From NCBI RefSeq assembly GCF_016863435.1, contig NZ_BOOW01000002.1, positions 1 through 64,000 on the forward strand: 64,000 nt of DNA, given 5' to 3'. Positions 49,829 through 63,839 of this stretch are shown here, piece by piece. The stretch comes from Sinosporangium siamense. Its GTDB lineage: Bacteria; Actinomycetota; Actinomycetes; Streptosporangiales; Streptosporangiaceae. The notes under the pieces are model-generated. The model did no database searches, was not told the DNA's origin, and worked only from the letters and a program-made list of their open reading frames with translations. The position numbers were made by a program, and so were the translations under genes. Numbering within the stretch: the stretch's first letter is position 1; each line of letters starts with the position of its first letter.

Positions 49829-49939
49829 CAGCCATGGGGAAAGCGCCCCGGACTCCCCGCCGACGTCTCTCCGCGCCGGAGCCCCTGACCGGCTCCCGGC
49901 CGCACTGCAGATCATGCAGCCGTGTGAGAATTGCTTCCC

Positions 49940-50584
49940 ATGCATGATGTCGTCCTGATCTCCGACCCCCGAGTCACATCCATCCCCGTGGAGGAGAGCG
50001 GCGAGCCGCTGGGCGACGCACGAGGCAGGCTGCGGCTGTCCTCACTCCTCGCCGACCCCGAGGGTGCATACGCCCACCTGCGCGAAGGGGTGCTCACCCG
50101 GCTGGAGGAGGCCGAGCGTCTCCTGCCCGCGGGTTATGCCCTTTTGATGGTCGAGGGCTACCGTCCGCCCGTGCTGCAGCGGCGCTACTTCGACAAATAC
50201 TCCGGCGAGCTCCGCGCGGCCTTCCCCGAGATGTCCCCGGAAGAGGTCCACGTCGCCGCGAGCCGCTACGTCTCGCCCATCGAGGTCGCCCCGCACACCG
50301 CCGGCGCCGCCGTCGACCTGACCCTCTGCTACGAGGACGGCACCGAGCTCGACATGGGCACCGAGATCAACGCGAACCCCGAGCAGAGCGACGGCGCCTG
50401 CTACACCGCCGCCCCCGGCATCGGCGACGAGGCCCGCCACCACCGCGACATCCTGTCGGCCGCTCTGACGGAGGCGGGCCTCGTCAACTACCCCACCGAG
50501 TGGTGGCACTGGTCCTTCGGCGACCGCTACTGGGCCATGGCCACCGGGGCGAAGGCCGCGATCTACGGCCCCCACACTCCCTGA
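49940..50584 (+). CDS. M15 family D-Ala-D-Ala dipeptidase, VanX-like
   Basis: This 214-residue zinc peptidase of family M15D has VEGYRPPVLQ (Arg for transition-state binding), HTAGAAVDL (zinc His and Asp; the usual SxHxxGxAxD has Ala-Pro before His here) and EWWHW (catalytic Glu and zinc His). Members cleave D-Ala-D-Ala, either for glycopeptide resistance with VanHA or for cell-wall amino-acid recycling. No VanH or VanA homologues are nearby, so recycling is more likely. The 3' end overlaps the convergent gene by 22 bp. Confidence 0.88.
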   Translation: MHDVVLISDPRVTSIPVEESGEPLGDARGRLRLSSLLADPEGAYAHLREGVLTRLEEAERLLPAGYALLMVEGYRPPVLQRRYFDKYSGELRAAFPEMSPEEVHVAASRYVSPIEVAPHTAGAAVDLTLCYEDGTELDMGTEINANPEQSDGACYTAAPGIGDEARHHRDILSAALTEAGLVNYPTEWWHWSFGDRYWAMATGAKAAIYGPHTP

Positions 50585-52527
50585 CCCGCGGTGGCCGGCT
50601 GCTCGTGCCGCCGCCGCGCGGCCGACTCGGGCGTCGCGGGCGGTACGTTGACCCACTGCAGGCCGTGCGCTCCCGCCACGATCAGCAGCCCCGCGTGCGC
50701 GACCATCGCCGTGACCCCGGGCGGCACCGCGCACGGCGGCTCCTGCCACTCGGCCGGCCCGGCGATCGGCAGCCGCGTGCGCAGCACACCGCGCTCGTCG
50801 AGCGCGTAGATCCGCCCGTTCATGCCGCTGAGCATCTGCGCGCCACCCGCCGATCCCACCTCGCGCCATGGCCGCCCTGCGGCGAGCTCCGGCATGGTGA
50901 TGTGCCAGAGCCGGTCCGGCCGGGTGGCGGCGAAGAACGCCCCGTCGCCGCAGGCGAGGGCGACCGTCCCCGGCGGCACGGCGCCGACGCCGGTCCACGG
51001 GGCGTCGTGCGGGCTGGGAGCCCGGTAGCACAACCTGCCGTCCGCGGTGGCCGCGTAGAGGCCGAGCCCAAGTCCGGCGGCCGCCTCACGGGGCACGTCC
51101 ATGCAGAGCACACCGGGGGCCGGGCCGACCGGGGCCCAGCCGAGGTTCTGCCCGCACAACTCGCGCGCGACCAGGTCACCGGTATGGCTCACGCCGTACA
51201 TGAGTCTGCCGTGCACGGTGAGGGCGGTTATGTCGGCGGGGCGGCCGATGACCTCCCAGCGTCCGGGGACGGGTGGCGCCGACAGGCGGTCGATCACGTT
51301 GCGCGTGATGCGCTCCACGACCGGGTCGTGCAGGGTGTTGCCCCAGTTGACGGTGGCGGCGTTGAAGACCGTGCCCGCGCCGAGCCGGAAGACGCCCATG
51401 GTGGCCATGCCGCCCTGCCCGAAGGCGCTCCAATGCCGCAGATCGGCGGTCGCGAGCACCACGAACGACGGTGAGGTGCCGTCCCGGCAGGTCACCCGCG
51501 GCACGCCCTGGATCTCCTCGAACTCCGCCGCGTCGGTCTCATAGCCCAGGCAGCCCCTGCCGAAGTCGTCGCCGTCGGCCAGGCCGGTGCCCTCGAACAC
51601 CCAGTGGCCGGCGAACCGCACCCGGTAGGACTCCTCGCGCATGAGCTTCATGTACGGTCCCCAGGTGCCGGCGCCCTGACGGAAGCTCACACCCGTGAGG
51701 GTGTTCTCCGGCCTGCCCACCGAGGGGCTCGACCACTCGGCGGTCACCAGCCGCGGATCGGGCTCGGGGTCGGCCGCCGGGTCGCGGTAGCACACCATGA
51801 CCTGCCGGTCGTCCTCCAGGCGGATCTGCCACCAGGCGGTGTTGCCGGACAGGATCGCGACGTTGCCGCCGCGCCGGGCGAACTCCTCCACCGCGTCGCG
51901 CATGCCCGCCGACCAATACTCGTCGTGGCCGTTGACGATCAGCAGGCGGTAGGACGACAGCAGGTCGAGCCCCTCGTGCAGGTCGAGGCATGAGCAGAAC
52001 TCCACCTCGTAGCCCGCGGGGCGCAGCCACCGCAGCAGCCCCTCCTCCCAGCGCTCGGGTGGCGGCCCGCCGCCCGGCCGGGCGAACTCCACCCGGAACG
52101 CCCGGGCCGGCTGCTCGCTCCAGTAGACGCTCTGGCCGGGCTCGCCCGCGCGGTTGTACGCCTCCCACGTGGTGAACGGGATGGACACCAGGATCGGGGA
52201 AGCCGAGCCGGGCACGGCCTGCCGTACGACGAAATAGACCTCGTTGTCCGGCCCCGGCCCCTCGCCCGGCAGGGCCAGCTCACGCGGCCAGGGCAGATTC
52301 TCGTCGGACATGCCGGGCAGGAGGAACCGCGCGCGGTACAACGAACTCGGCCAGTCGAGCGGCACGTCGAGCGCCCACTCGCCGCCGCCGACCTCGGCCG
52401 TGAGCACCCGGCGGTCGTCGGTCGCGTCGGCCACGCTCACCCGCACCGGGCCGGGGGCCTCGACCCTGAAGGTCAGCGTCTCCCCCTGGGCGACCGAGGT
52501 GGACAGACACCACGCCCGCACACTCAT
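50563..52527 (-). CDS. N,N-dimethylformamidase large-subunit-like protein with propeller-like C-terminus
   Basis: This 654-residue protein is the last gene of the leftward biosynthetic operon. Its central part matches the N,N-dimethylformamidase beta-subunit-like domain: FTTWEAYNRAGEPGQSVYW near 118-136 and LLIVNGHDEYWSAGMRDAV near 195-213, then GGNVAILSGNTAWWQIR. The last 200 residues hold repeated WxxVG/YAATxDGRL units like a tectonin-type beta-propeller. The dimethylformamidase domain carries a mononuclear iron site in the characterised enzyme; whether it hydrolyses an amide here is unknown. The ATG overlaps the condensation gene stop. Confidence 0.75.
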   Translation of the reverse strand: MSVRAWCLSTSVAQGETLTFRVEAPGPVRVSVADATDDRRVLTAEVGGGEWALDVPLDWPSSLYRARFLLPGMSDENLPWPRELALPGEGPGPDNEVYFVVRQAVPGSASPILVSIPFTTWEAYNRAGEPGQSVYWSEQPARAFRVEFARPGGGPPPERWEEGLLRWLRPAGYEVEFCSCLDLHEGLDLLSSYRLLIVNGHDEYWSAGMRDAVEEFARRGGNVAILSGNTAWWQIRLEDDRQVMVCYRDPAADPEPDPRLVTAEWSSPSVGRPENTLTGVSFRQGAGTWGPYMKLMREESYRVRFAGHWVFEGTGLADGDDFGRGCLGYETDAAEFEEIQGVPRVTCRDGTSPSFVVLATADLRHWSAFGQGGMATMGVFRLGAGTVFNAATVNWGNTLHDPVVERITRNVIDRLSAPPVPGRWEVIGRPADITALTVHGRLMYGVSHTGDLVARELCGQNLGWAPVGPAPGVLCMDVPREAAAGLGLGLYAATADGRLCYRAPSPHDAPWTGVGAVPPGTVALACGDGAFFAATRPDRLWHITMPELAAGRPWREVGSAGGAQMLSGMNGRIYALDERGVLRTRLPIAGPAEWQEPPCAVPPGVTAMVAHAGLLIVAGAHGLQWVNVPPATPESAARRRHEQPATAGQGVWGP

Positions 52528-53894
52528 CCGGCCCTCCGCAGTGCACTCACCGCGGAACCGTCACCGAAGGCCGCCTCCATCAGGAACATCTCCAAGCCGC
52601 TCAACCAGCGCTCCATCGCCTCCTTAGGGACGTAACGGGTGTCGGCGGTCAGCGACAGCGCCAGCGCGCCGCCCTCGCCGCTCACGTGCACACAGAAACG
52701 GCAGTTGAGCTGCTCCTGGCTCAGCGGCCACGCCAGCGTCGAACGCGTCAGCGCGTCCCGCACCTCGGCCGCGTCGCTCAGCTCCGCGGGGGGATCGGCG
52801 AAACGCATGTCGTTGAAGCAGCAGTACGGACGGACCTGCTCGCCCCGCGCCTCGCTCGCCCGCGCCGTGGCCGCGGCCCGCCCGGCCGGATCGTGGAATC
52901 CGTACCGGTAGGCGCGCAGCAGAGCGGGTTTGGCCGTCGTGAGCAGGCCGGCCATGGTGAGGCGGCCGCCGTCCGTCACGTCGAGCGTGAACAGGCTCTC
53001 CTGGGAGAGCGTGGTGACCGCCGCGCGGGTGTCGGCGCGGAAGCGGTTGCCGACGATGGGCAGCATCGCGCACCTCGACAGCCCCGTCAGCGCGCTCGTC
53101 ATCGCGCAGGCGCCGACCAGCAGCACCGCGCCGGCCGAGGTGCTGTAGCGGGCCGCCGCGTGCCGGGCCGCGGCCTCGGCGGCGTGCGAGGTGAGGACGG
53201 CGCGCCAGATCGGCGGTCCCTCCACCTCGGCGGCGGGCGCCGGGAACATCGACGCCGGCACCCGCAGGAACTCGCCTTCCCAGTAGTCCTCGGCCGCCTG
53301 CGCGACCCGGCGTCCCTGCTCCGACTCCTGCCAGAGCGCGAGTTCCAGCGGCGTGGCTGGGAGCGTTCCCGCCACTCGTCCCTTGATGAGCAGCAGCCGC
53401 AGATCGCGCAGGACGATCTCCGCGCCCAGCCCGTCCACCGCCATGTGGCAGTAGACCAGCACCAAGTGGGTGACCACGCCCGACGGCGAGGTGACCAGGC
53501 CGGCCCGCAGCGGCCACTCGGCCGCGTAGTCGAACCGGCGGCGTTTGAGACGTTCCAATAGTTCGGTGGCCGTCTTGGTGCCCTCACCCGGTTCGGCGGT
53601 CACGATCTCCGCCGTGAGCTCCCCGCGCCCGTGAACCACCTGCCCGCGACCCTCGGGGGTCGTGGTCCGCAACGCCGGATGCCGCTCGACGAGGCCGCTC
53701 ACCGCGGCGGCGGCGCTCTGCGGGGTCAGCGGCCATGCGGCGCGCGGCACGGCGAGCACGTGGCCGAAGTTGAAGTAGTGGTCGTCCGGGGCGGTCGCCT
53801 CGACCGTCTCCCAGATCGCCCGCTGGCCCCAGGTGAGCGGACCGCGGCCTTCGCCGCCGCCCTCGAAGGCGACCCGGATGGCCTGCGGGTTCAC
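52524..53894 (-). CDS. Free-standing condensation-like domain protein
   Basis: This 456-residue condensation/acyltransferase-fold protein reads CHMAVDG (C149, H150, D154, G155) at the active site, so the first His of HHxxxDG is Cys while the catalytic second His stays. The N-terminal half keeps PLTWGQRAIWETV (C1-like) and RHPALRTT (C2-like); the C-terminal half is poorly conserved with typical peptide-forming C domains. It may transfer an acyl group to a small acceptor. GTG 53894 overlaps the stop of the carrier gene by 4 nt, which implies joint action with that carrier. Confidence 0.8.
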   Translation of the reverse strand: MNPQAIRVAFEGGGEGRGPLTWGQRAIWETVEATAPDDHYFNFGHVLAVPRAAWPLTPQSAAAAVSGLVERHPALRTTTPEGRGQVVHGRGELTAEIVTAEPGEGTKTATELLERLKRRRFDYAAEWPLRAGLVTSPSGVVTHLVLVYCHMAVDGLGAEIVLRDLRLLLIKGRVAGTLPATPLELALWQESEQGRRVAQAAEDYWEGEFLRVPASMFPAPAAEVEGPPIWRAVLTSHAAEAAARHAAARYSTSAGAVLLVGACAMTSALTGLSRCAMLPIVGNRFRADTRAAVTTLSQESLFTLDVTDGGRLTMAGLLTTAKPALLRAYRYGFHDPAGRAAATARASEARGEQVRPYCCFNDMRFADPPAELSDAAEVRDALTRSTLAWPLSQEQLNCRFCVHVSGEGGALALSLTADTRYVPKEAMERWLSGLEMFLMEAAFGDGSAVSALRRAG

Positions 53895-54136: not shown

Positions 54137-54205
54137 GAGTGGTCCTGCCGATCCTGAACTGTGAAAATGGGTGTCGCCTGGGCGGCCCGCGAGGGAGCCG
54201 TCCCC

Positions 54206-57200
54206 TTACGCGCGTCCTTCGTGCGCGCTCGTATGGTTGTGTTGGGCCTCGTGCTGCGGGGCGCTTTTGTCCTTGCGGGCGCGGATGCCGAGCAGGTCGT
54301 CCGGCGTCGCGTCCGGCACGGTGGCGTCGAACCCGGCCAGCACCCGGTTGCGCAGCGCCAGCCCCACCAGCACGGCGATCAGCACCCCGAACACGATGTA
54401 CATGAGCGCGATGCCGCGCCCGGGACCGGTGCCGACGACCGCGCCGACGGTGTCCGCGAGCGCGCCGCCGGGGGCCATCATCGGCTCAAGCACCCGCTCG
54501 CCGAACGGTGCGACCAACCCGACCCCGAGCGGAATGGTCGACCAGGCCACCATCTGGTTCAGCGCGAACACACGCCCGTGGAACCGCTGCGGCACCTTCA
54601 TCTGGATGATCGTCGCGTAGACGCCGTTGACCAATGCCAGCCCCGCCGACACCCCGAAGGCGCCGATGCAGATGGTCACCAGGTCCTGGCGCATGCCCAC
54701 AAGCGCGCACGACCCGGCGATCACGAGCGTCAGCAGCAGCATCCCGGTCATACGCCGCTCACGGGGCCCGCCCCACAACGTCATCACGAGCCCGCCGAAG
54801 GCCGCGCCGAGCCCGCCGCACAACGCGACGTATCCCATCTCGGTGATGGTCGCGAACGACAACACCAGCGGCGAGTAGAGCAGGAAGATGGGCGACATCA
54901 GCAGGGCGAGCACCGCGAAGAAGCCCACCATGGAGCGGAAGTGCCGCTGTCCGATGGACAGCTTGAAGCCCGCCGCGATCTCCCGTCCCACCGACTCACG
55001 CCTGCGATGGGCGAGGGTCGCCGGGAAGACCGTGAGGGCGAGTACGGCGAGCGCGAAGACATAGCCCGCGATGTCGGCCAGCAGGATGCCCTTCAGCCCG
55101 ATCACCGACATGAGCCCGACCGCGATCAGCGGGGCGATGAACTGCGCGACGCCCGTGGTCATCTGGGCCACGCCGTTCGCGTGACCGAGGTAGCGCTTGG
55201 GCACGAGCTGCGGGATCGCCGAGGTGAAGGCGACCCGCTGGAAGGTCAGCGCCACCGACAGCGCGGTCAGCAGGATGTAGAGGTGCCAGACCTCGAGCCG
55301 GTCCGCCCACAGGAGCGCGGCGGTCGCCGCCTGCACGAGCAGCCCCGCGGCCGTCCCCGCCGTCATCACCGCGCGGCGGCTCGACCGGTCGACGATCGCG
55401 CCCACCAGGGGCGCCGCCAGCACGCCAGGCATCAGCGCGAGCACGTTGAGCAGGGCCATCTGGGCGAGTTCGCCGGTCTGCATATAGACCCAGATCGGGA
55501 TGGCGAACTCGGTGAGCGTCGCGCCGAGGATCGTGACCATCTGCCCGAGGGCGACGGTCAGGAACCGGCCGAGGGTCGGCTCCGGCGCGGCCCGTTCCCG
55601 TGGGGCCTGGGTGGGGCCGGCCTGGTGGCCGGAGACGCCTTCAAGCGCCCAGCCCTCACCGCGCACCGTGTCACGGGGGGTTTCGTCCCGGAGGGCGGGG
55701 TGGACGGCGGTGACGATCGCCGCCAGCTCCTCCGCCCGAAATTTCAGGAAGTAGTGGCCGGCCTCGTCGATCACCGCCAAGGCCGTCGTCCCAGTCAGGA
55801 AATGCCACTCCTTGTAGCGTTCCTCGTAATACTCAGTGGTCGGGTCCTCCCCGCCCACCACCGACACCATCGCCGCCCGCAGCGGTTCGGCCCGCGAGTC
55901 GAGCAACCCGGTGAAATACTCCTCCGCCTGCCGCGCGTCGTGGCGCATGTTGCGCAGGATGAAGTCCTTCTGCTCGTCGCTCAGCTCGCCGAGGTCGGCC
56001 CCGAGCGAGGTCAGCCAGCCGAGCTGCGCCCGCGTACTGCGAAGCCGGTCGTTGTCCGCCACCTTCGCCCACAGGCCGAGGAAGCCCTTGGTGGGCCGGG
56101 CGAACGGGAAGATGCCCCCGAGGTAGACCGCCTCCAGTTCACGCCCCTCGGCCTCCAGCAGCCGGGCCACCGCGACCGCCAGCGCGCCGCCGACGCCGCA
56201 GTGCCCGTAGATCGCCAGCGGGCCCTCCACGGTCGCGAGGATCTCCCTGGCGCACTGCTCGGCCACCTCGGCCAGCGGGCGCGGGTCCTCGGCCAGGCCG
56301 AGGTCGTGGCCCGGCACCGCGACCGCGTGCAACGCGACGCCGGGCGGCAGCGCGTCGGCCAAGGGCTGGTAGACGACGGCGCTGCCTCCGCCGTACGGCA
56401 GGCACACGAGGCTGAGCGAGGTCGGGCCCGGCCGGGTGAGGCGGTAGAGCAGGCCCCGCTCCCCGCCGTCGCCGGCCTGGGCGAGGCGGGCGAGGCCGCG
56501 CACGGTGGGGTGCTGGAAGAGGTCCATCACGCTGACGGGCGTGCCGTCCTCGGGCAACTCGCGGCGGAGCCGCGCGACGACGCGGGTGGCGAGCAGCGAG
56601 TGGCCGCCGAGGTCGAAGAAGTCGTCCAGGGCTCCCACCACGGGCAGATCGAGCACATCGGCCCACACGGCGGCGATGATCTCCTCCACCGGCCCCGAGG
56701 GGGGTTCCACGTCGCCCTCGTCGGGGCGGCCCGCCTCAGGCTCGGGCAGGGCGGCGCGGTCGACCTTGCCGTGTGACTTGAGCGGCAGCTCGGGCAGCCA
56801 CACGTAGCGGGTCGGCACCATGTACTCGGGCAGGCGTTCCGCGAGCGCGGCGCGCAGTTCGCCCACGCTCATCCGGTCGCCCTCGGCGACCAGATAGGCC
56901 ACGAGGTCCAGCGACCCCGGCTTGCCCCGCGCATCGACCACCGCCTGGGCGATGCCCGGGAGCAGGCGCAGGGCCTCGTCGATCTCGCCGAGCTCGACCC
57001 GATAGCCGCGGATCTTGACCTGGAGGTCGCGCCGCCCGAGGAAGACGAGGTCGCCGCCGGCCGACCAGCGGGCCAGGTCGCCCGTGCGGTAGACACGTTC
57101 GCCGTCGATCTCGACGAATCGCTCGGCGGTCAGCTCCGGGCGCCCGAGATATTCCCTGGCGAGCCGGTCGCCGCCGATGCACAGCTCGCCCGCGACGCCG

Positions 57201-59635
57201 ATGGGCACGGGCTTCAGCCGATCGTCGAGCACATAGGTGCGCGCGTGACCGAGCGGCCTGCCGATCGGGGTGATCGGCCCGCGAACGTCGTCGTCGCCGC
57301 GCACCGTATAGGTCGTGACGCCGACGGTGGTCTCGGTCGGGCCATAGTGGTTGACCACCTCGCAGACGCCGAGCGCCGCGAGCTCCTTGGCCCAGTCCCA
57401 GCTCGATCCCTCGCCACCGAAGATCATCGTCTTGTGGGGGAGGAGCCGCCGCGCGTCCACCTCGGCGGTGAGCGCGGCCAGGTGCGACGGGGTCATCTTG
57501 AGGTAGTCGAACCTGGCCTGGGCGTGATAGTCGGCGAGTTCCAGCCCGGAGACGCGGGACGGCACCAGGTGCAGGCAGCCGCCGGTCATCAGCGACAGGT
57601 AGAGGACCGTCACCCCGAAGTCGAAGGAGAGCGACTGGAGCAGCCCGAACCGCTCCCCTTCCCCCACCCCGAAGCGCTCCCGCACGTCGGACAGGTAGTT
57701 GAGGATCTGCCGGTGTTGTACGGCGACGCCCTTGGGCCGCCCGGTGGAGCCCGACGTGTAGATCACGTAGGCCAGGTCCTCAGGCCCGGCGTCCACGGCG
57801 GGGGCCGAAGAGGCGGGCGCCTCTTCGGCCCCCGCCTCACGTGGCACGGCCAGCACGGGGCCGCAGAAGCCCGCCACGCGGGGGGCGCTCTCGTCGGCGA
57901 CCAGAGCCGCCGCGCCGGAATCCTCCAGCACATAGGCGATGCGGTCGACCGGCTGCTCGGGGTCGACGGGCACATATGCGCCGCCGGCCTTGAGCACGCC
58001 GAGCAGCGCGACCGCCGATTCGGGAGACCGTTCGACGAGCACCGCCACCCGGTCGTCGCGTCCCACGCCGAGCGCGCGCAACTCACGGGCGAGCCTGCCG
58101 GACCTGCGGGACAGCTCGGAGTAGGTCAGCGTGCGGTCGCCGTCGACGATCGCGGGCGCGTCCGGGAACCGTGCGGCGGCGGCCTCCACCAGCTCGTGCA
58201 CGGTGGAGGCGGTGGGCGGCACGGGGGTGGCGCGGCTCCACTCCTCCAGCAGGGAACGTTCCCGTTCCGTGCGCGGATCCAGTGCGGAGAGGCGGATGCC
58301 GGGGTCGGCGACGACCTGGCGCACGAGGTTCTCGAAGTGCTCCGACATACGTTCGACCGTGGCGGCCTCGAACAGGTCGGTGCTGTAGACGAGATGGGTG
58401 AGCAGGCCCTCGGCGCGGATCTTCACCTCTAGCGCGAGGTCGAACTTGGCCTGAGTGGCGCCCGCTTCGTAGGGCTCGTAGGGCACTCCGCCGAACTCGG
58501 AGATCTCGGCGTCCTCGGTGCGCAGCGTCAGTTCGGCCTGGAACACCGGGGTGCGGCTGAGGTCGCGCTTGATGTCGAGCGCTTCCACAAGCCGGTCGAA
58601 GGGCACCTCGGAGGCATATGCCTCCAGGGCGACGGACCTCACGCGTTTCAGCAGCTCGGCGAAGGTGGGGTCGCCCGAGGTGTCGGTGCGCAACACCATC
58701 GTGTTGATGAAGTAGCCGATGACCGGCTCCAGCTCCGGGCGCTGCCTGGAGGCGAAGGGGGAGCCCACGCAGATGTCGTTCTGCCCGGTGTAGGCGGACA
58801 GTTGCGCGTTGAACACCGCGACGAGCGCCATGAACAAGGTGCAACGTTCCCTGCGGGCCAGCTTGGCGAGCCCGTCGCTCAGGTCGCGCGGCAGCTGCCG
58901 GGTGACCACCGCCCCCGCCGAGCCCTTCACCCGCGGCCGCGGACGGTCGGCGGGGAGCTCCAGCACGGGCGGGTTGCTGAGGCGCTGCTCCCAGACGCCC
59001 AGCGGCGGCGCACCGCGAGCGTCGAGCCACGCGGCGTAGTCGGCATATTGCACGGCGAGTGGAGGTAACGGCGACTCGGCTCCCGCCAGGAAGGCGGAGT
59101 ACAACGTGGACAACTCCTGCTGGAGCAGACCCAGCGACCAGCCGTCGCCCGCGATGTGGTGCAGGACGAGCAGCAGGACGTGATCGTCGCCGCTCAGCGT
59201 CAGGAGCGCGGCCCGCAGGACCGGCTCGCCGGCGAGGTCGAAAGGCCGGTTGACCCGCTCGGCCGCGGCGGCGGAGGCGGCTGCCTCCCGCTCCGGGGGC
59301 GCGAGGTGGGTCAGATCGACCCGCTCCAGCACCGGTCTTCGCGCGGTGCCGGCGGGGGCGTCGACCACCGCGACGGGCTCGCCGTCGACCTCGGCGTATC
59401 TCGTGCGCAGCACCTCATGGCGGGCCACGACCTCTTGCAGGGCCTCGTCGAGGACTCCGGCGGAGAAGGGGCCGCGCAGGCGCAGCGCGATGAACATGTT
59501 GTAGGCCGCGCTATCCGGATCGAGGCGGTTCAGGAACCACAGCCCCGTCTGTCCTGGCGACATCGGCGTATTCGAGCCGGGATCGCGCGGGGCGACCACA
59601 TCTTCGCGTGAGTCTGGTCTGACAAGTGCGTCCAC
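54206..59635 (-). CDS. Nonribosomal peptide synthetase C-A-PCP-TE fused to an MFS transporter
   Basis: One 1809-residue chain. The C domain is about 25-450 (HHIAGDG, 159-165). The A domain is about 475-965 (YTSGSTGRPKG, NHYGPTETT, YRTGDLARW) with code residues D672 F673 T676 K713 I738 G740 H763 V771 G772 K957, close to Asn/Asp codes. The PCP is about 980-1050 (FFDLGGHSLL, Ser1013). The thioesterase is about 1075-1315 with nucleophile Cys1146 in YGHCGVGG, Asp1264 and His1294. An MFS transporter of some 10-12 helices follows from about 1355 to 1775. The GTG start lacks a clear ribosome binding site. The fusion implies synthesis coupled to export. Confidence 0.95.
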   Translation of the reverse strand: MDALVRPDSREDVVAPRDPGSNTPMSPGQTGLWFLNRLDPDSAAYNMFIALRLRGPFSAGVLDEALQEVVARHEVLRTRYAEVDGEPVAVVDAPAGTARRPVLERVDLTHLAPPEREAAASAAAAERVNRPFDLAGEPVLRAALLTLSGDDHVLLLVLHHIAGDGWSLGLLQQELSTLYSAFLAGAESPLPPLAVQYADYAAWLDARGAPPLGVWEQRLSNPPVLELPADRPRPRVKGSAGAVVTRQLPRDLSDGLAKLARRERCTLFMALVAVFNAQLSAYTGQNDICVGSPFASRQRPELEPVIGYFINTMVLRTDTSGDPTFAELLKRVRSVALEAYASEVPFDRLVEALDIKRDLSRTPVFQAELTLRTEDAEISEFGGVPYEPYEAGATQAKFDLALEVKIRAEGLLTHLVYSTDLFEAATVERMSEHFENLVRQVVADPGIRLSALDPRTERERSLLEEWSRATPVPPTASTVHELVEAAAARFPDAPAIVDGDRTLTYSELSRRSGRLARELRALGVGRDDRVAVLVERSPESAVALLGVLKAGGAYVPVDPEQPVDRIAYVLEDSGAAALVADESAPRVAGFCGPVLAVPREAGAEEAPASSAPAVDAGPEDLAYVIYTSGSTGRPKGVAVQHRQILNYLSDVRERFGVGEGERFGLLQSLSFDFGVTVLYLSLMTGGCLHLVPSRVSGLELADYHAQARFDYLKMTPSHLAALTAEVDARRLLPHKTMIFGGEGSSWDWAKELAALGVCEVVNHYGPTETTVGVTTYTVRGDDDVRGPITPIGRPLGHARTYVLDDRLKPVPIGVAGELCIGGDRLAREYLGRPELTAERFVEIDGERVYRTGDLARWSAGGDLVFLGRRDLQVKIRGYRVELGEIDEALRLLPGIAQAVVDARGKPGSLDLVAYLVAEGDRMSVGELRAALAERLPEYMVPTRYVWLPELPLKSHGKVDRAALPEPEAGRPDEGDVEPPSGPVEEIIAAVWADVLDLPVVGALDDFFDLGGHSLLATRVVARLRRELPEDGTPVSVMDLFQHPTVRGLARLAQAGDGGERGLLYRLTRPGPTSLSLVCLPYGGGSAVVYQPLADALPPGVALHAVAVPGHDLGLAEDPRPLAEVAEQCAREILATVEGPLAIYGHCGVGGALAVAVARLLEAEGRELEAVYLGGIFPFARPTKGFLGLWAKVADNDRLRSTRAQLGWLTSLGADLGELSDEQKDFILRNMRHDARQAEEYFTGLLDSRAEPLRAAMVSVVGGEDPTTEYYEERYKEWHFLTGTTALAVIDEAGHYFLKFRAEELAAIVTAVHPALRDETPRDTVRGEGWALEGVSGHQAGPTQAPRERAAPEPTLGRFLTVALGQMVTILGATLTEFAIPIWVYMQTGELAQMALLNVLALMPGVLAAPLVGAIVDRSSRRAVMTAGTAAGLLVQAATAALLWADRLEVWHLYILLTALSVALTFQRVAFTSAIPQLVPKRYLGHANGVAQMTTGVAQFIAPLIAVGLMSVIGLKGILLADIAGYVFALAVLALTVFPATLAHRRRESVGREIAAGFKLSIGQRHFRSMVGFFAVLALLMSPIFLLYSPLVLSFATITEMGYVALCGGLGAAFGGLVMTLWGGPRERRMTGMLLLTLVIAGSCALVGMRQDLVTICIGAFGVSAGLALVNGVYATIIQMKVPQRFHGRVFALNQMVAWSTIPLGVGLVAPFGERVLEPMMAPGGALADTVGAVVGTGPGRGIALMYIVFGVLIAVLVGLALRNRVLAGFDATVPDATPDDLLGIRARKDKSAPQHEAQHNHTSAHEGRA

Positions 59636-59682: not shown

Positions 59683-59829
59683 TTTGCTATTCCCGAGTGG
59701 CCGCCAGTCTCCCATGATCACGAGTGCAGGCACAATACCCCCTTGCATCTCGGGTCTTCATCTCCCGATAGGGGCTCTTGCGCCTACTTCGATCGACGTG
59801 TCACACTGGCGCCGCCGGACAACTGTTAA

Positions 59830-59849
59830 GAATCTTTCCGGAAACAAGC
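59830..59849. promoter_or_regulatory. Cluster operator copy 2 (ligase side)
   Basis: GAATCTTTC-CG-GAAACAAGC keeps the TTTC-CG-GAAA core of copy 1, with a weaker right arm. It ends 30 bp before ATG 59880, the mirror position of copy 1. Confidence 0.55.
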
Positions 59850-59879
59850 TTTCCAATTCTGATTCGTGCGGGAGTCAGG

Positions 59880-61358
59880 ATGAGCAAGATGTCGCGTACG
59901 GTCCCAGCGCTGCTCGCAGCGCGATCCGCTGTCGAGCCGGACCGTATCGCGCTCGTGGTGCCCGGCGTCGGCGCGCTGAGCGCGGAGGAGTGGGACGGGT
60001 ATTCCTCCGGCGTCGCCGCCGGGCTCCTCGACCACGGCGTGACCAAGGGTGACCGGGTCGCGCTCGTGTTCGGGAATCGCGAGTGGATCGACTACGCCGT
60101 GGCCTATTGCGCCGTGCTCAAGGCGGGGGCGGTAGCCGTACCGCTCTCAGATCGGCTCGCGCCGGCCACACTGCGTGAGACAGTGCGGCACGCGGGCGCC
60201 GTCGCCACGATCTGCGGCAGCGGATTCGACGGATCCCTGACCGTGGCCGACCTCGACACGGGCCACCGCGGACCCCTCCCGGTGACCGTCGAGCCAGGCG
60301 ACCCGGCGCAGATCCTCTACACCTCCGGCACCACGGGCAAACCCAAGGGCGTCATCGCCACCCACGCCAACCTCACGTACGGCAGTGCGCCGACGGCCAA
60401 CCGCCGGACCTATCGCCACTCGCGGCACCTCGTGCACGCCTTCCCGATCGGCACCAACGCCGGGCAGGTGATGCTGTTCAACGCCCTCGACGCGCACCCG
60501 ACCATCGTGACGCTGCCGAGGTTCACCCCTGAGCGGTTCGCCCGCCTCATCGCCGAACACCGGGCCGGCACCGTCTTCGTGGTGCCGGCGATGGCCATCG
60601 AACTGCTCGCGAGCGGTGCCCTCTCACGCCACGACACCTCAAGCGTGCTGCTGCTCGGCTCGGCCGCGGCGCCCCTCCCCGCCGCGGTGGCGGCGGGGTT
60701 GTCCCGCGCCTTGCCGAGGGCCACGATCGCGAACTACTACACCTCGACGGAGTCGTCGCCCGCCCACACAGTGATGGTCTTCGACCCGGAGCGTCCCGGG
60801 TCGGTGGGCAGGCCATCGGGTGGCGGGAACGTGCGGGTCGCCGACGAGGACGGACGCCCGCTGCCACCCGGCACCACCGGCGAGGTGTGGCTCAAGTCGG
60901 CGGCCACCACCCGCGCCTACTACGGCGACCCTGAGGCCACACGGAGTGTCTTCGACCGCGGCTGGATCCGGATGGGGGATCTCGGATATCTGGACGACGA
61001 GGGCTATCTCTACCTTGTGGACCGCGACAGGGACGTCATCAAGTCCGGCGCCTACAAGGTCTCCACGCTGCGGGTGGAGGAGGCGTTGTACGAGCATCCC
61101 GAGGTCTTGGAGGCTGCGGCCTTCGGGGTGTCCCACCCTGTGCTCGGCACGACGGTGTCCGTAGCGATCGTTCCGCGTTCGCCCATCACTCCCGAGACCC
61201 TGCGAGCCTTCCTGCTCGATCGGCTTGCGCAGCATGAACTGCCCACCCGGGTGCACACCATCCGGGCCCTCCCCAGGAACGACGCGGGGAAGGTCGACAA
61301 ACGGCGGCTACGCACCATGTGCACGACCGCCGACGGCACGGAAACGGACCAACAATGA
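59880..61358 (+). CDS. Acyl/aryl-CoA synthetase or acyl-AMP ligase
   Basis: This 492-residue ANL-superfamily enzyme has the P-loop YTSGTTGKPKGV near 175, the ANYYTSTES aromatic motif near 284, WIRMGDLGYLDDEGYLYLVDRDRDVIKSG, and the C-terminal catalytic Lys in NDAGKVDKRRL. It activates a carboxylic acid as adenylate and probably passes it to CoA or to the carrier domain of the next protein. It is first in the rightward operon. GGGAGTCAGG precedes the ATG, and the stop overlaps the next ATG by 4 nt. The acid cannot be predicted. Confidence 0.9.
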   Translation: MSKMSRTVPALLAARSAVEPDRIALVVPGVGALSAEEWDGYSSGVAAGLLDHGVTKGDRVALVFGNREWIDYAVAYCAVLKAGAVAVPLSDRLAPATLRETVRHAGAVATICGSGFDGSLTVADLDTGHRGPLPVTVEPGDPAQILYTSGTTGKPKGVIATHANLTYGSAPTANRRTYRHSRHLVHAFPIGTNAGQVMLFNALDAHPTIVTLPRFTPERFARLIAEHRAGTVFVVPAMAIELLASGALSRHDTSSVLLLGSAAAPLPAAVAAGLSRALPRATIANYYTSTESSPAHTVMVFDPERPGSVGRPSGGGNVRVADEDGRPLPPGTTGEVWLKSAATTRAYYGDPEATRSVFDRGWIRMGDLGYLDDEGYLYLVDRDRDVIKSGAYKVSTLRVEEALYEHPEVLEAAAFGVSHPVLGTTVSVAIVPRSPITPETLRAFLLDRLAQHELPTRVHTIRALPRNDAGKVDKRRLRTMCTTADGTETDQQ

Positions 61359-62890
61359 CACAAACTTTAGGTGCGCGGGCTGAGGTGTCATTCGCGCAAT
61401 ATCTGATGTGGATCATGGAGTCGACCGGCGGCGCCGGCTCCGTCTACCACATGCCCCTGCTCGTGACCTTCGACGGCGAGCTCGACGAACGTGCCCTGCT
61501 CGACGCGTGCGCAGTCGTCGTGCGCCGCCACTCCGTGCTCTCAACCGCGGTCGAGGAACGCGACGGCGTGCTGGTCGAGGTGGCGGCGGCCAACCTGCCC
61601 ACCGCCGTGGCCGCGGCGCCCGCGGACCTCGACGCCTTCGTCCGCGAAGAGGTGCTCCGCCCCTTCGACCTCTTCAGAGGCCCGCTGATCCGCTTCACGC
61701 TCGTCAAACTCTCCCCGAAGCGGCACGTCCTGGTCGTGGTCGCCCACCACCTCGTCTTCGACGGCGAATCCAAGGACGTGTTCCTCCGCGACCTGGCCGC
61801 CTTCTACAACGGCACCCCGCTCCCGCGGCTGCCCTCGACCTATGCGGACCACGCGGCGGCGGAACGGGTGCGCGTCGCCGGGTTGTTGTCCGAGGCCAAG
61901 GCGTTCTGGGAGCCGCGCTGGAGCGAACCCGGCGCCGTCCATCTGCCGGGATACACCGGCTCCTCCCGCGCGGTGGCGCCGGGTGAGAGCCTGCCCTTCG
62001 CGATCGACGCCGCCAGGCTGGACGGGGCCGGGCGCATCGGGGTCACCCGCTTCGAACTCTTCCTCGCCGCACTCCACGCCGTGCTCTACCGCTACGGCAA
62101 CGACCGCGTCGTCACCGCCGTCGACGTGTCCACGCGCACCCCGGAGACACGCGACCAGCTCGGCCTGTTCGTCAACGAGTTCCCGGTCGCGAGCGCCCCC
62201 GGCGGCATCACGAGCTTCCGCGATCTGGCGCTGCGGCTGCGCGCCGAACTGCGGGCCACCTATCTGTTCCGCGAGGTTCCCGTGGCTCGTGCCGTACCCC
62301 GCTTCCGGCCGCGCGCCGCGGTCGCACCCGTGTCGGTGAGCTATCGCAGGCGCAAGGCGCTGCCGGAGTTCAGCGGGCTGGACGTCAGCGTCGACTACAC
62401 CGTCTTCAACCACTCCGTGCGCAGCACTCTCCACCTGCTCGTCGTGGAGGGGCCCGACGGACTCAACGCCCACGTGCAATACCGCGCCGGCACGCTTACC
62501 CCGGAGGCCGCCGCGCAGATAGCGGCCGGCCTGCGGTCGGTGCTGGAGACCGCGGCGGACGAGCCCGACGCCGCCCTCACCGCCCTCCCCGTGGAAGGCG
62601 CCGGTGTCCCGGCCGCCGTCCAGCCCGTCGCCCCGGCTGCCGGGGCGGTCACCGCCGAAGGCACCGCGCTGGCCGACGACATCCGGGCCATCTGGCAGGA
62701 GGTCCTCGGCATGAAGGGCATCGAGGACGACGACGACCTGTTCGACCTCGGAGGGCACTCCCTCACCATGACCCAGATCATCGCCCGCATGCGCAAGCGG
62801 CTTCGCATCGAGGTCTCACTCGACGCCTTCTTCGACAACCCCACCATCTCTGGCGTCGTCGCCGAGATCGAGAGAGCCGGACGTGGGTGA
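61355..62890 (+). CDS. NRPS C-PCP didomain protein
   Basis: This 511-residue protein has a condensation domain with intact HHLVFDG (H131-H132...D136-G137) and LGLFVNEFPV (C5-like), a linker rich in Ala/Pro, and a C-terminal carrier domain LFDLGGHSLTMTQII (Ser469). It lacks an A domain, so its carrier must be loaded in trans by the upstream ligase or by another adenylation enzyme. The neighbours on both sides overlap it, which implies tight co-expression. Confidence 0.92.
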   Translation: MTQTLGARAEVSFAQYLMWIMESTGGAGSVYHMPLLVTFDGELDERALLDACAVVVRRHSVLSTAVEERDGVLVEVAAANLPTAVAAAPADLDAFVREEVLRPFDLFRGPLIRFTLVKLSPKRHVLVVVAHHLVFDGESKDVFLRDLAAFYNGTPLPRLPSTYADHAAAERVRVAGLLSEAKAFWEPRWSEPGAVHLPGYTGSSRAVAPGESLPFAIDAARLDGAGRIGVTRFELFLAALHAVLYRYGNDRVVTAVDVSTRTPETRDQLGLFVNEFPVASAPGGITSFRDLALRLRAELRATYLFREVPVARAVPRFRPRAAVAPVSVSYRRRKALPEFSGLDVSVDYTVFNHSVRSTLHLLVVEGPDGLNAHVQYRAGTLTPEAAAQIAAGLRSVLETAADEPDAALTALPVEGAGVPAAVQPVAPAAGAVTAEGTALADDIRAIWQEVLGMKGIEDDDDLFDLGGHSLTMTQIIARMRKRLRIEVSLDAFFDNPTISGVVAEIERAGRG

Positions 62891-63839
62891 CGTGCTCACA
62901 GAGGAGGCAGGGCCCGGCGGGCTTGCACAGCTCGGCGGGCTCTCCCGCCTCGCGGACGACGACCTGCGCACGATGCTGCTCATCCGGCACTTCGAGCTCA
63001 AGCTGCTGGATCTGTTCGACAGGGGCGAACTCAGCGGCACCACGCACACCTGCCTCGGCCAGGAATACGTGCCGGTCGCGCTCGCGCCCCTCCTCGCGCC
63101 CCTGGACCACGTGTTCAGCAACCACCGGGGCCACGGCCACTACATCGCCCGGCACCACGACCCGCACGGACTCCTCGCGGAGATCATGGGCCGCGAGGGG
63201 GCGATCTGCGCCGGCGTAGGCGGCAGCCAGCACATCCACCGCGACCGCTACCTGTCGACCGGGGTCCAGGGTGAGAGCGTGCCCGTCGCCGCGGGAGTGG
63301 CGCTGCACCTCAAGAACCGGGAGGTCGGCTCGCTGGCGTGCGTCTACATCGGCGACGGCACCTTCGGCGAGGGCGCGGTCTACGAGGCGCTCAACATGGC
63401 CGTGTTGTGGCGCCTCCCGCTGCTCGTCGTGGTCGAGAACAACGGCATCGCCCAGTCCACCCCTACCGGCAGCCAGATGTCGGGAACGGTCCGAGGGCGT
63501 GCCGAGGCGTTCGGCGCCGGTCACACGCGGCTCACCTCCCTCGACGTGAACGAGCTCAGGACCGGCCTGCGCCCCGTCGTCGACCTGGTACGACACGAGC
63601 ACCGCCCCCAAGTGGTGGAGTTCGTCACCCACCGCGTCGGCCCCCACAGCAAGGGCGACGACACGCGGCCCGCGCAGGTGCTGCGCGAGGCACGTTCCAA
63701 CGACTGGTACGACCTATACGCCGCCGCGCACCCGGAGCACTTCTCCTCCCTGGACGCGGCCCAGCGTGAACTCATCGCCGACATCGCCGAAGAGGTGGCC
63801 GCGAGGCCCCTGTCCACCTGGGAGCCGCCGTGCGTGTAG
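62883..63839 (+). CDS. TPP-dependent dehydrogenase E1 component, alpha subunit
   Basis: This 318-residue 2-oxo acid dehydrogenase/acetoin dehydrogenase alpha subunit has RHFELKLLDLFDRGEL, the SNHRGHGHYIA substrate loop, and the TPP/Mg motif GDGTFGEGAVYEALNMAVLW..VVVENN. It pairs with the beta subunit that follows. Two-subunit E1 enzymes decarboxylate 2-oxo acids and transfer the acyl or aldehyde unit. In this cluster it may supply a starter unit. The GTG start overlaps the previous gene by 8 nt. Confidence 0.92.
   Translation: MGDVLTEEAGPGGLAQLGGLSRLADDDLRTMLLIRHFELKLLDLFDRGELSGTTHTCLGQEYVPVALAPLLAPLDHVFSNHRGHGHYIARHHDPHGLLAEIMGREGAICAGVGGSQHIHRDRYLSTGVQGESVPVAAGVALHLKNREVGSLACVYIGDGTFGEGAVYEALNMAVLWRLPLLVVVENNGIAQSTPTGSQMSGTVRGRAEAFGAGHTRLTSLDVNELRTGLRPVVDLVRHEHRPQVVEFVTHRVGPHSKGDDTRPAQVLREARSNDWYDLYAAAHPEHFSSLDAAQRELIADIAEEVAARPLSTWEPPCV

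Follow-up and report, generated by a model that had tools for sequence, protein, structure and literature searches.

The window analysed here, a stretch of 64,000 nucleotides from Sinosporangium siamense, carries on its reverse strand one gene in which an NRPS module continues, by way of a linker, into an MFS transporter. The best explanation as a whole, to which we give a probability of about 0.6, is an NRPS termination module fused to its own MFS exporter, with tethered release from a Cys thioester. The frame, the intact catalytic motifs, the conservation of the fusion and the Cys type of the thioesterase can be read directly from the sequences. The genes and the domain types were already known; what is new is the conserved joining of NRPS and MFS. 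A search of the open-licence literature brought up neither a publication on NRPS-MFS fusions nor a characterised fused member, in agreement with an earlier note on this DNA, which knew of no characterised mechanism for such a fusion, and it is very likely that databases hold many such fused proteins. The single frame and the membrane tether proposed in that note are both supported; it had seen neither the widespread family, probably of single origin, nor the resemblance of the thioesterase (TE) to the Cys enzymes ObiF and SulM.

The fused gene and its junction

A single ORF of 1809 codons (1809 aa) spans 54206..59635 of the reverse strand in the order C-A-PCP-TE-linker-MFS. It is read here from a GTG at 59635; translation may instead begin at the in-frame ATG at 59563-59561. 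The gene and its parts are as follows:

54206..59635, reverse strand: fused gene C-A-PCP-TE-linker-MFS, 1809 codons, GTG start at 59635
58253..59569, reverse strand: condensation domain, aa 23-461, HHIAGDG
56765..58186, reverse strand: adenylation domain, aa 484-957, code DFTKIGHVG(K), Asp/Asn-like, from motifs
56483..56680, reverse strand: carrier domain, aa 986-1051, GGHSL
55706..56440, reverse strand: thioesterase domain, aa 1066-1310, Cys1146, Asp1264, His1294, Gly1173
55565..55705, reverse strand: linker, aa 1311-1357, GWALEGVS, modelled beta strand
54350..55564, reverse strand: MFS domain, aa 1358-1762, 12 membrane helices, motif A GAIVDRSSRR
54209..54349, reverse strand: cytoplasmic tail with PDATPDDLLG, PDA..DD(L) pattern

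Every Pfam match on this ORF exceeds its Pfam cut-off: Condensation (aa 23-461), AMP-binding (aa 484-830) with its C-terminal part (aa 884-957), PP-binding (aa 986-1051), Thioesterase (beginning at aa 1076) and MFS_1 (aa 1362-1698, 9.7e-21). The core motifs are intact in the C domain (HHIAGDG, of the form HHxxxDG), the A domain (SGSTGRPKG, YGPTE and YRTGD) and the PCP (GGHSL), and the ORF is an NRPS termination module, with C, A, PCP and TE in one chain. That one polypeptide runs from C-A-PCP-TE into the MFS, as first noted, is confirmed by the single frame and the Pfam domains in this order, and the gene almost certainly encodes one fused NRPS-exporter protein.

An open frame of 871 aa (54161-56776, forward strand) lies antisense to the TE-MFS half and looks like a high-GC by-product; open frames alone are therefore misleading in this DNA. 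Open-frame length as sole proof of fusion was rejected, as GC-rich frames stay open across other genes, and a fusion was accepted only if C-A-PCP, TE and MFS share one ORF. In L140, the frame that holds the MFS is 2035 aa long and runs across an NRPS encoded in a different frame; L130 was rejected as an unfused member, its sequence being cut by a contig end. Using the full-length protein as query against 60 relatives and a plasmid collection, we obtained many full-length matches; altogether, 98 distinct proteins of independently sequenced actinomycetes share the in-frame C-A-PCP-TE-MFS order.

In the linker of the fused ORF, no in-frame stop codon was found, and the junction shows no change of frame, which bears out the earlier description of a stop-free passage from the TE His motif to the first membrane helix. 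The linker contains a single in-frame start codon, a GTG (codon 1324), preceded by bases (GACGAAACCCCCCGTGACACG) with no Shine-Dalgarno-like site at the usual distance; ATG 1366 is inside the first membrane helix. A start with a Shine-Dalgarno-like site occurs at the junction of only 3 of the 98 fused proteins, and internal translation restart was rejected on these two grounds. That a sequencing frameshift or a misassembly joined two genes has a negligible probability and was likewise rejected: nothing was found in its favour, and the 98 proteins, from many assemblies and centres, are all open across the junction. Their common single-frame order excludes both chance and a frameshift in the present assembly, and the sequencing error at the junction that the earlier note had raised against its own reading is ruled out by these independently sequenced relatives.

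The linkers show a coding-type GC pattern (0.77/0.68/0.89 by codon position) and range from 8 to 122 aa among the 98 fused proteins. Such variable length, together with some ten residues that are disordered in the AlphaFold2 model between the linker strand and helix 1, would fit post-translational cleavage, after which NRPS and MFS would work as separate proteins. However, the linker includes a conserved, structured part, a WWLxGVS-type motif present in 42 of the 98 relatives (GWALEGVS here, at about 55620-55660) that is modelled as a short beta strand; no conserved cleavage motif was seen in the linkers, the same end could be reached with separate genes, and we consider cleavage very improbable.

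Spread and origin of the family, and its membrane half

A scan of contigs gave at least 576 relatives, the best 80 of which are all fused and come from Streptosporangiaceae, Micromonosporaceae, Pseudonocardiaceae and Streptomycetaceae. As the scan is biased to fused Cys-TE proteins (its patterns favour Cys TEs and its query spans TE-MFS), the frequency within the family was estimated instead from an MFS-only search of 81 Streptosporangiaceae genomes, in which each of the 70 top matches belongs to a frame of 1687 aa or longer; these matches come from 22 of the 81 genomes, with up to six copies per genome. A TE-only search recovers the same frames. In a broad sample of the phylum, at E 1e-60, the fusion was found only in the window's own genome, so that the spread outside the family is judged from the biased contig scan.

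A tree was built by a quick method from 51 fused MFS sequences and 11 free ones, the free set being what the search returned and no root being inferred; a branch with SH-aLRT 99 separates the fused sequences from the free ones. The fused MFS are one clade relative to free relatives found beside NRPS genes, which indicates one fusion event, and the fusion probably arose once. The MFS of the window falls inside the fused clade, with TE and MFS in one frame, and the protein is a member of the NRPS-TE-MFS fusion family defined here. Searching for a C-terminal tail of the PDA..DD(L) pattern, we found it in 81 of the 98 fused proteins and in 0 of the 11 free MFS. Patristic distances correlate between C and MFS (rho 0.80), C and TE (rho 0.65) and TE and MFS (rho 0.63), whereas the value for A and MFS (rho 0.21) is inside the shuffle range; C, TE and MFS thus travel together and the A domain is exchanged. 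As judged from these trees, the release and export units stay paired while the substrate changes.

The free MFS relatives adjoin NRPS genes; on a Nostoc plasmid, the MFS gene stands next to an NRPS gene without being joined to it. Each of the nearest actinomycete free MFS that we examined follows an NRPS ending in a thioester-reductase domain (NAD_binding_4), and one such pair is found in the window's own genome, on contig C53.

AlphaFold2 modelling of PCP-TE-MFS with 38 sequences gave a mean pLDDT of 85.4, a pTM of 0.81 and twelve long helices. The carrier is complete (12 helices and motif A, GAIVDRSSRR), and its nearest neighbours by fold are SotB (Z 34.9), VMAT and NorA; Foldseek also matched MdfA. 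By sequence, no relative of the MFS half was found in the PDB. The TIGR00900 match (165.6 bits) is below the curated cut-off (319.6), and the likeness to DHA-type drug/H+ antiporters is one of fold only, which fixes neither substrate nor direction of the MFS. The earlier suggestion of a tie to the membrane with export at release holds for the tether, which is very probable from the 12-helix model, its cytoplasmic N-side and the conserved fusion; export of this NRPS product by the MFS half is plausible and, from family and fold, likely. The MFS half might instead be mainly a self-resistance pump, or an anchor beside membrane partners, with the product leaving elsewhere, as the nearness of the fold to drug/H+ antiporters and the existence of membrane-anchored NRPSs (the epsilon-poly-lysine and PDAP synthetases, PMC4668381) would allow. 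We consider this improbable, given a complete 12-helix carrier with motif A in place of a reduced anchor, and the pairing of MFS with TE and C throughout a large clade.

Thioesterase, terminal residue and release

The TE nucleophile is Cys1146 (codon 56198-56200) and not a Ser; the other catalytic residues are Asp1264, in the late position II (codon 55844-55846), and His1294 (codon 55754-55756), and position I is Gly1173. Most NRPS TEs hold their Asp at position I. In a set of 102 proteins (the 98 fused proteins and four more distant fused ones), the nucleophile is Cys in 96, position-II Asp and His are conserved in all 102, and position I is G or A in all 102; the nucleophile of the L012 TE is Cys. 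A basic-type A code is found in the six proteins whose TE has a Ser nucleophile (L067, L071, L077, L081, L084 and L087) and in no others; these six form one clade. Unfused Cys TEs occur deeper in the TE tree, and the Cys nucleophile may be older than the fusion, a branching order that this midpoint-rooted tree does not prove.

By sequence, the best PDB match of the TE is ObiF1 (E 1.9e-29), and SulM (5e-12) and RifR (3e-10) also match; by fold (Foldseek), the top two entries are ObiF1 and then SulM, whose PCP-TE aligns to the modelled PCP-TE with Z 30.8. Residue alignment to ObiF1 places Asp1264 at position II. The elbow reads GHCxxG or GHSxxG in 95 of 98 fused TEs (GHCGVG here), one residue longer than the GXCXG of ObiF, and the TE chemistry may therefore differ; deeper fused members have normal spacing. 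Of the ObiF/SulM-type features, the TE has the Cys nucleophile and the position-II Asp and lacks the GXCXG elbow spacing. The catalytic Cys and the moved Asp of ObiF are required for beta-lactone closure (PMC6668435), and SulM combines the same features with beta-lactam closure (PMC11298585). AB3403 has a Cys-nucleophile TE that is uncharacterised (PMC11298585), so that Cys alone is no proof of cyclisation. Given the ObiF/SulM-type active site, intramolecular ring closure may well be the release mode, and coupling of such a Cys TE to an exporter would be chemically sensible.

We propose that the module encoded by the fused gene would terminate a short NRPS line: its C-A-PCP part would add the last residue (Asp/Asn-like here), and the TE would bind the chain to Cys1146 as a thioester and then release the product. 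The 12-helix MFS, with a cytoplasmic N-terminus bearing the whole NRPS, would pin the assembly line to the inner membrane face and would export the product, probably via proton antiport. Release would perhaps be an intramolecular closure on the side chain of the last residue, giving a strained or activated ring, and not plain hydrolysis; if the product were reactive, the fused exporter would shorten its cytoplasmic stay.

The A codes were read by position from motifs, and we interpret them in the fused family as follows: DFTK(I/L/V)GH(V/I)GK as Asp/Asn-like (58 of 102 including near variants, the window copy among them), DVWHxSLxDK as Ser-like (23 fused proteins), DLYNxSLIWK as Cys-like (10) and DTEDIGTxIK as basic (6). 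The code strings were sought in the literature and none was found; antiSMASH predicts Asp or Asn for the Herbidospora members (PMC4599437), which agrees with the assigned codes. A terminal Ser or Cys could allow closure of a four-membered ring, and Asp or Asn of a five-membered ring. No beta-hydroxylase was seen beside the fused gene, and with an Asp/Asn-like code lacking the beta-hydroxyl a beta-lactone is therefore not predicted for the window copy. By analogy, ring-closing release by the fused TE is a tentative proposal, rather short of even odds, and least sure for the Asp-like copy here.

The TE may also be a plain Cys hydrolase and the MFS an ordinary exporter, the fusion only setting 1:1 dosage and co-expression, with neither channelling nor a reactive product. 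Free homologous MFS already adjoin NRPS genes, so the fusion may be a simple gene join, and the terminal A codes vary widely, as for a generic releaser. Equal dosage, however, is also possible with separate adjacent genes; the single fusion clade with its many copies and its C, TE and MFS distances in step speaks against this explanation, as does the ObiF-type triad kept in all fused TEs, which suggests more than convenience. We regard it as somewhat unlikely.

The most far-reaching form of the tethered-release reading is that the chimera makes reactive electrophiles by Cys-TE closure (Ser beta-lactone, Cys beta-thiolactone, Asp/Asn cyclic anhydride or imide) and passes them straight to the fused exporter. 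We hold this to be distinctly unlikely; if true, synthesis, release and self-protection would be one machine, and the sister branch would do likewise with aldehydes, released by a reductase and handled by a free MFS.

The genes around the fused gene are:

59778..61358, forward strand: AMP ligase (acyl-CoA synthetase-like), divergent neighbour, near 48 of 80 relatives
61319..62890, forward strand: C-PCP protein without A domain, near 61 of 80 relatives
62883..63839, forward strand: 2-oxoacid dehydrogenase E1 alpha, with E1 beta and lipoyl E2 just past the window end
52524..53894, reverse strand: stand-alone condensation-like protein, downstream (Pfam)
50563..52527, reverse strand: N,N-dimethylformamidase beta-like protein (DMFA2_C), downstream, near 21 of 80 relatives

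These counts were made within the flanks of the best 80 of at least 576 relatives, some on short contigs. HHxxxDG is intact in the C-PCP protein, and a VanX-like D-Ala-D-Ala dipeptidase family protein (Peptidase_M15, 49931-50584), syntenic in close relatives, lies near the cluster. E1 alpha, E1 beta and lipoyl E2 (L026:2-1928 beyond the window) are all three near 40 of the 80 relatives, and the E1 genes are found mainly with Asp- and Cys-like A codes, seldom Ser-like ones. The genome of the window has eight E1_dh genes, that is seven besides the cluster copy, which makes the cluster E1/E2 set an extra one, biosynthetic or protective; supply of a starter and a resistant copy of a target are candidate roles. 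Dynaplanin (PMC9239090) pointed to a resistance role for such genes; as it is not an NRPS product, this role is a lead only.

Whether an assembly line hands its product directly to an exporter can usually not be tested, because they are separate proteins; the covalent chain found here, kept across a large clade, makes coupling testable by splitting one gene. The TE type marks hundreds of gene clusters (at least 576 relatives) in Streptosporangiaceae and neighbours as small-ring or activated-peptide candidates, which can be sorted by terminal residue via the A-domain code.

Comparison with known systems

Herbidospora nrps-6 and similar genes were tabulated in 2015 as 'C/A/T-TE' (PMC4599437), with the MFS half unmentioned. 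The lengths listed for five of these Herbidospora genes (1677-1716 aa) match those of the fused ORFs L057, L059, L068, L069 and L082 minus two residues, and the genes belong to the same family.

Like the fused locus, the reductase-NRPS locus of contig C53 has an AMP ligase, a C domain and a C-A-PCP module, and its MFS is a homologue (37%) of the fused one; it differs from the fused gene in its thioester-reductase release and in an MFS that is a separate gene. Along with the AMP ligase and the free MFS, this paralogous cluster (L132, G000:C53:10000-29900) encodes C-A-PCP and C-A-PCP-reductase, and it looks like a peptide-aldehyde pathway.

EntF and EntS of enterobactin likewise present a C-A-PCP-TE module and then an MFS exporter in the pathway (EntS being that exporter), but they are two separate proteins. 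The EntF TE has its Asp in position I (PMC6668435), whereas that of the fused TE is in position II.

Epsilon-poly-L-lysine synthetase (Pls) and PDAP synthetase are, like the fused protein, single membrane-built NRPS chains (PMC4668381). In these enzymes, by contrast, helices surround condensation-like domains, there is neither TE nor MFS carrier, and the products are polymers; identity with a Pls-type membrane NRPS was rejected, as the fused protein has a TE and a complete MFS and no tandem condensation-like domains within helices.

SulM (sulfazecin NRPS; PDB 8W2C, 8W2D) shares with the fused TE the Cys nucleophile and the Asp at position II; unlike the fused protein it has no MFS, and its specific Gln-Cys-Asn motif (PMC11298585) is absent here, where His-Cys-Gly is read. 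ObiF1 (obafluorin NRPS, PDB 6N8E) has the same C-A-PCP-TE order with a TE that is not C-terminal in the chain, as well as the Cys nucleophile, the late triad Asp and Gly at position I. It is distant from the fused TE (29% in the Foldseek alignment) and the A substrates differ; its TE is followed by an MbtH-like domain (PMC6668435), and that of the fused protein by an exporter.
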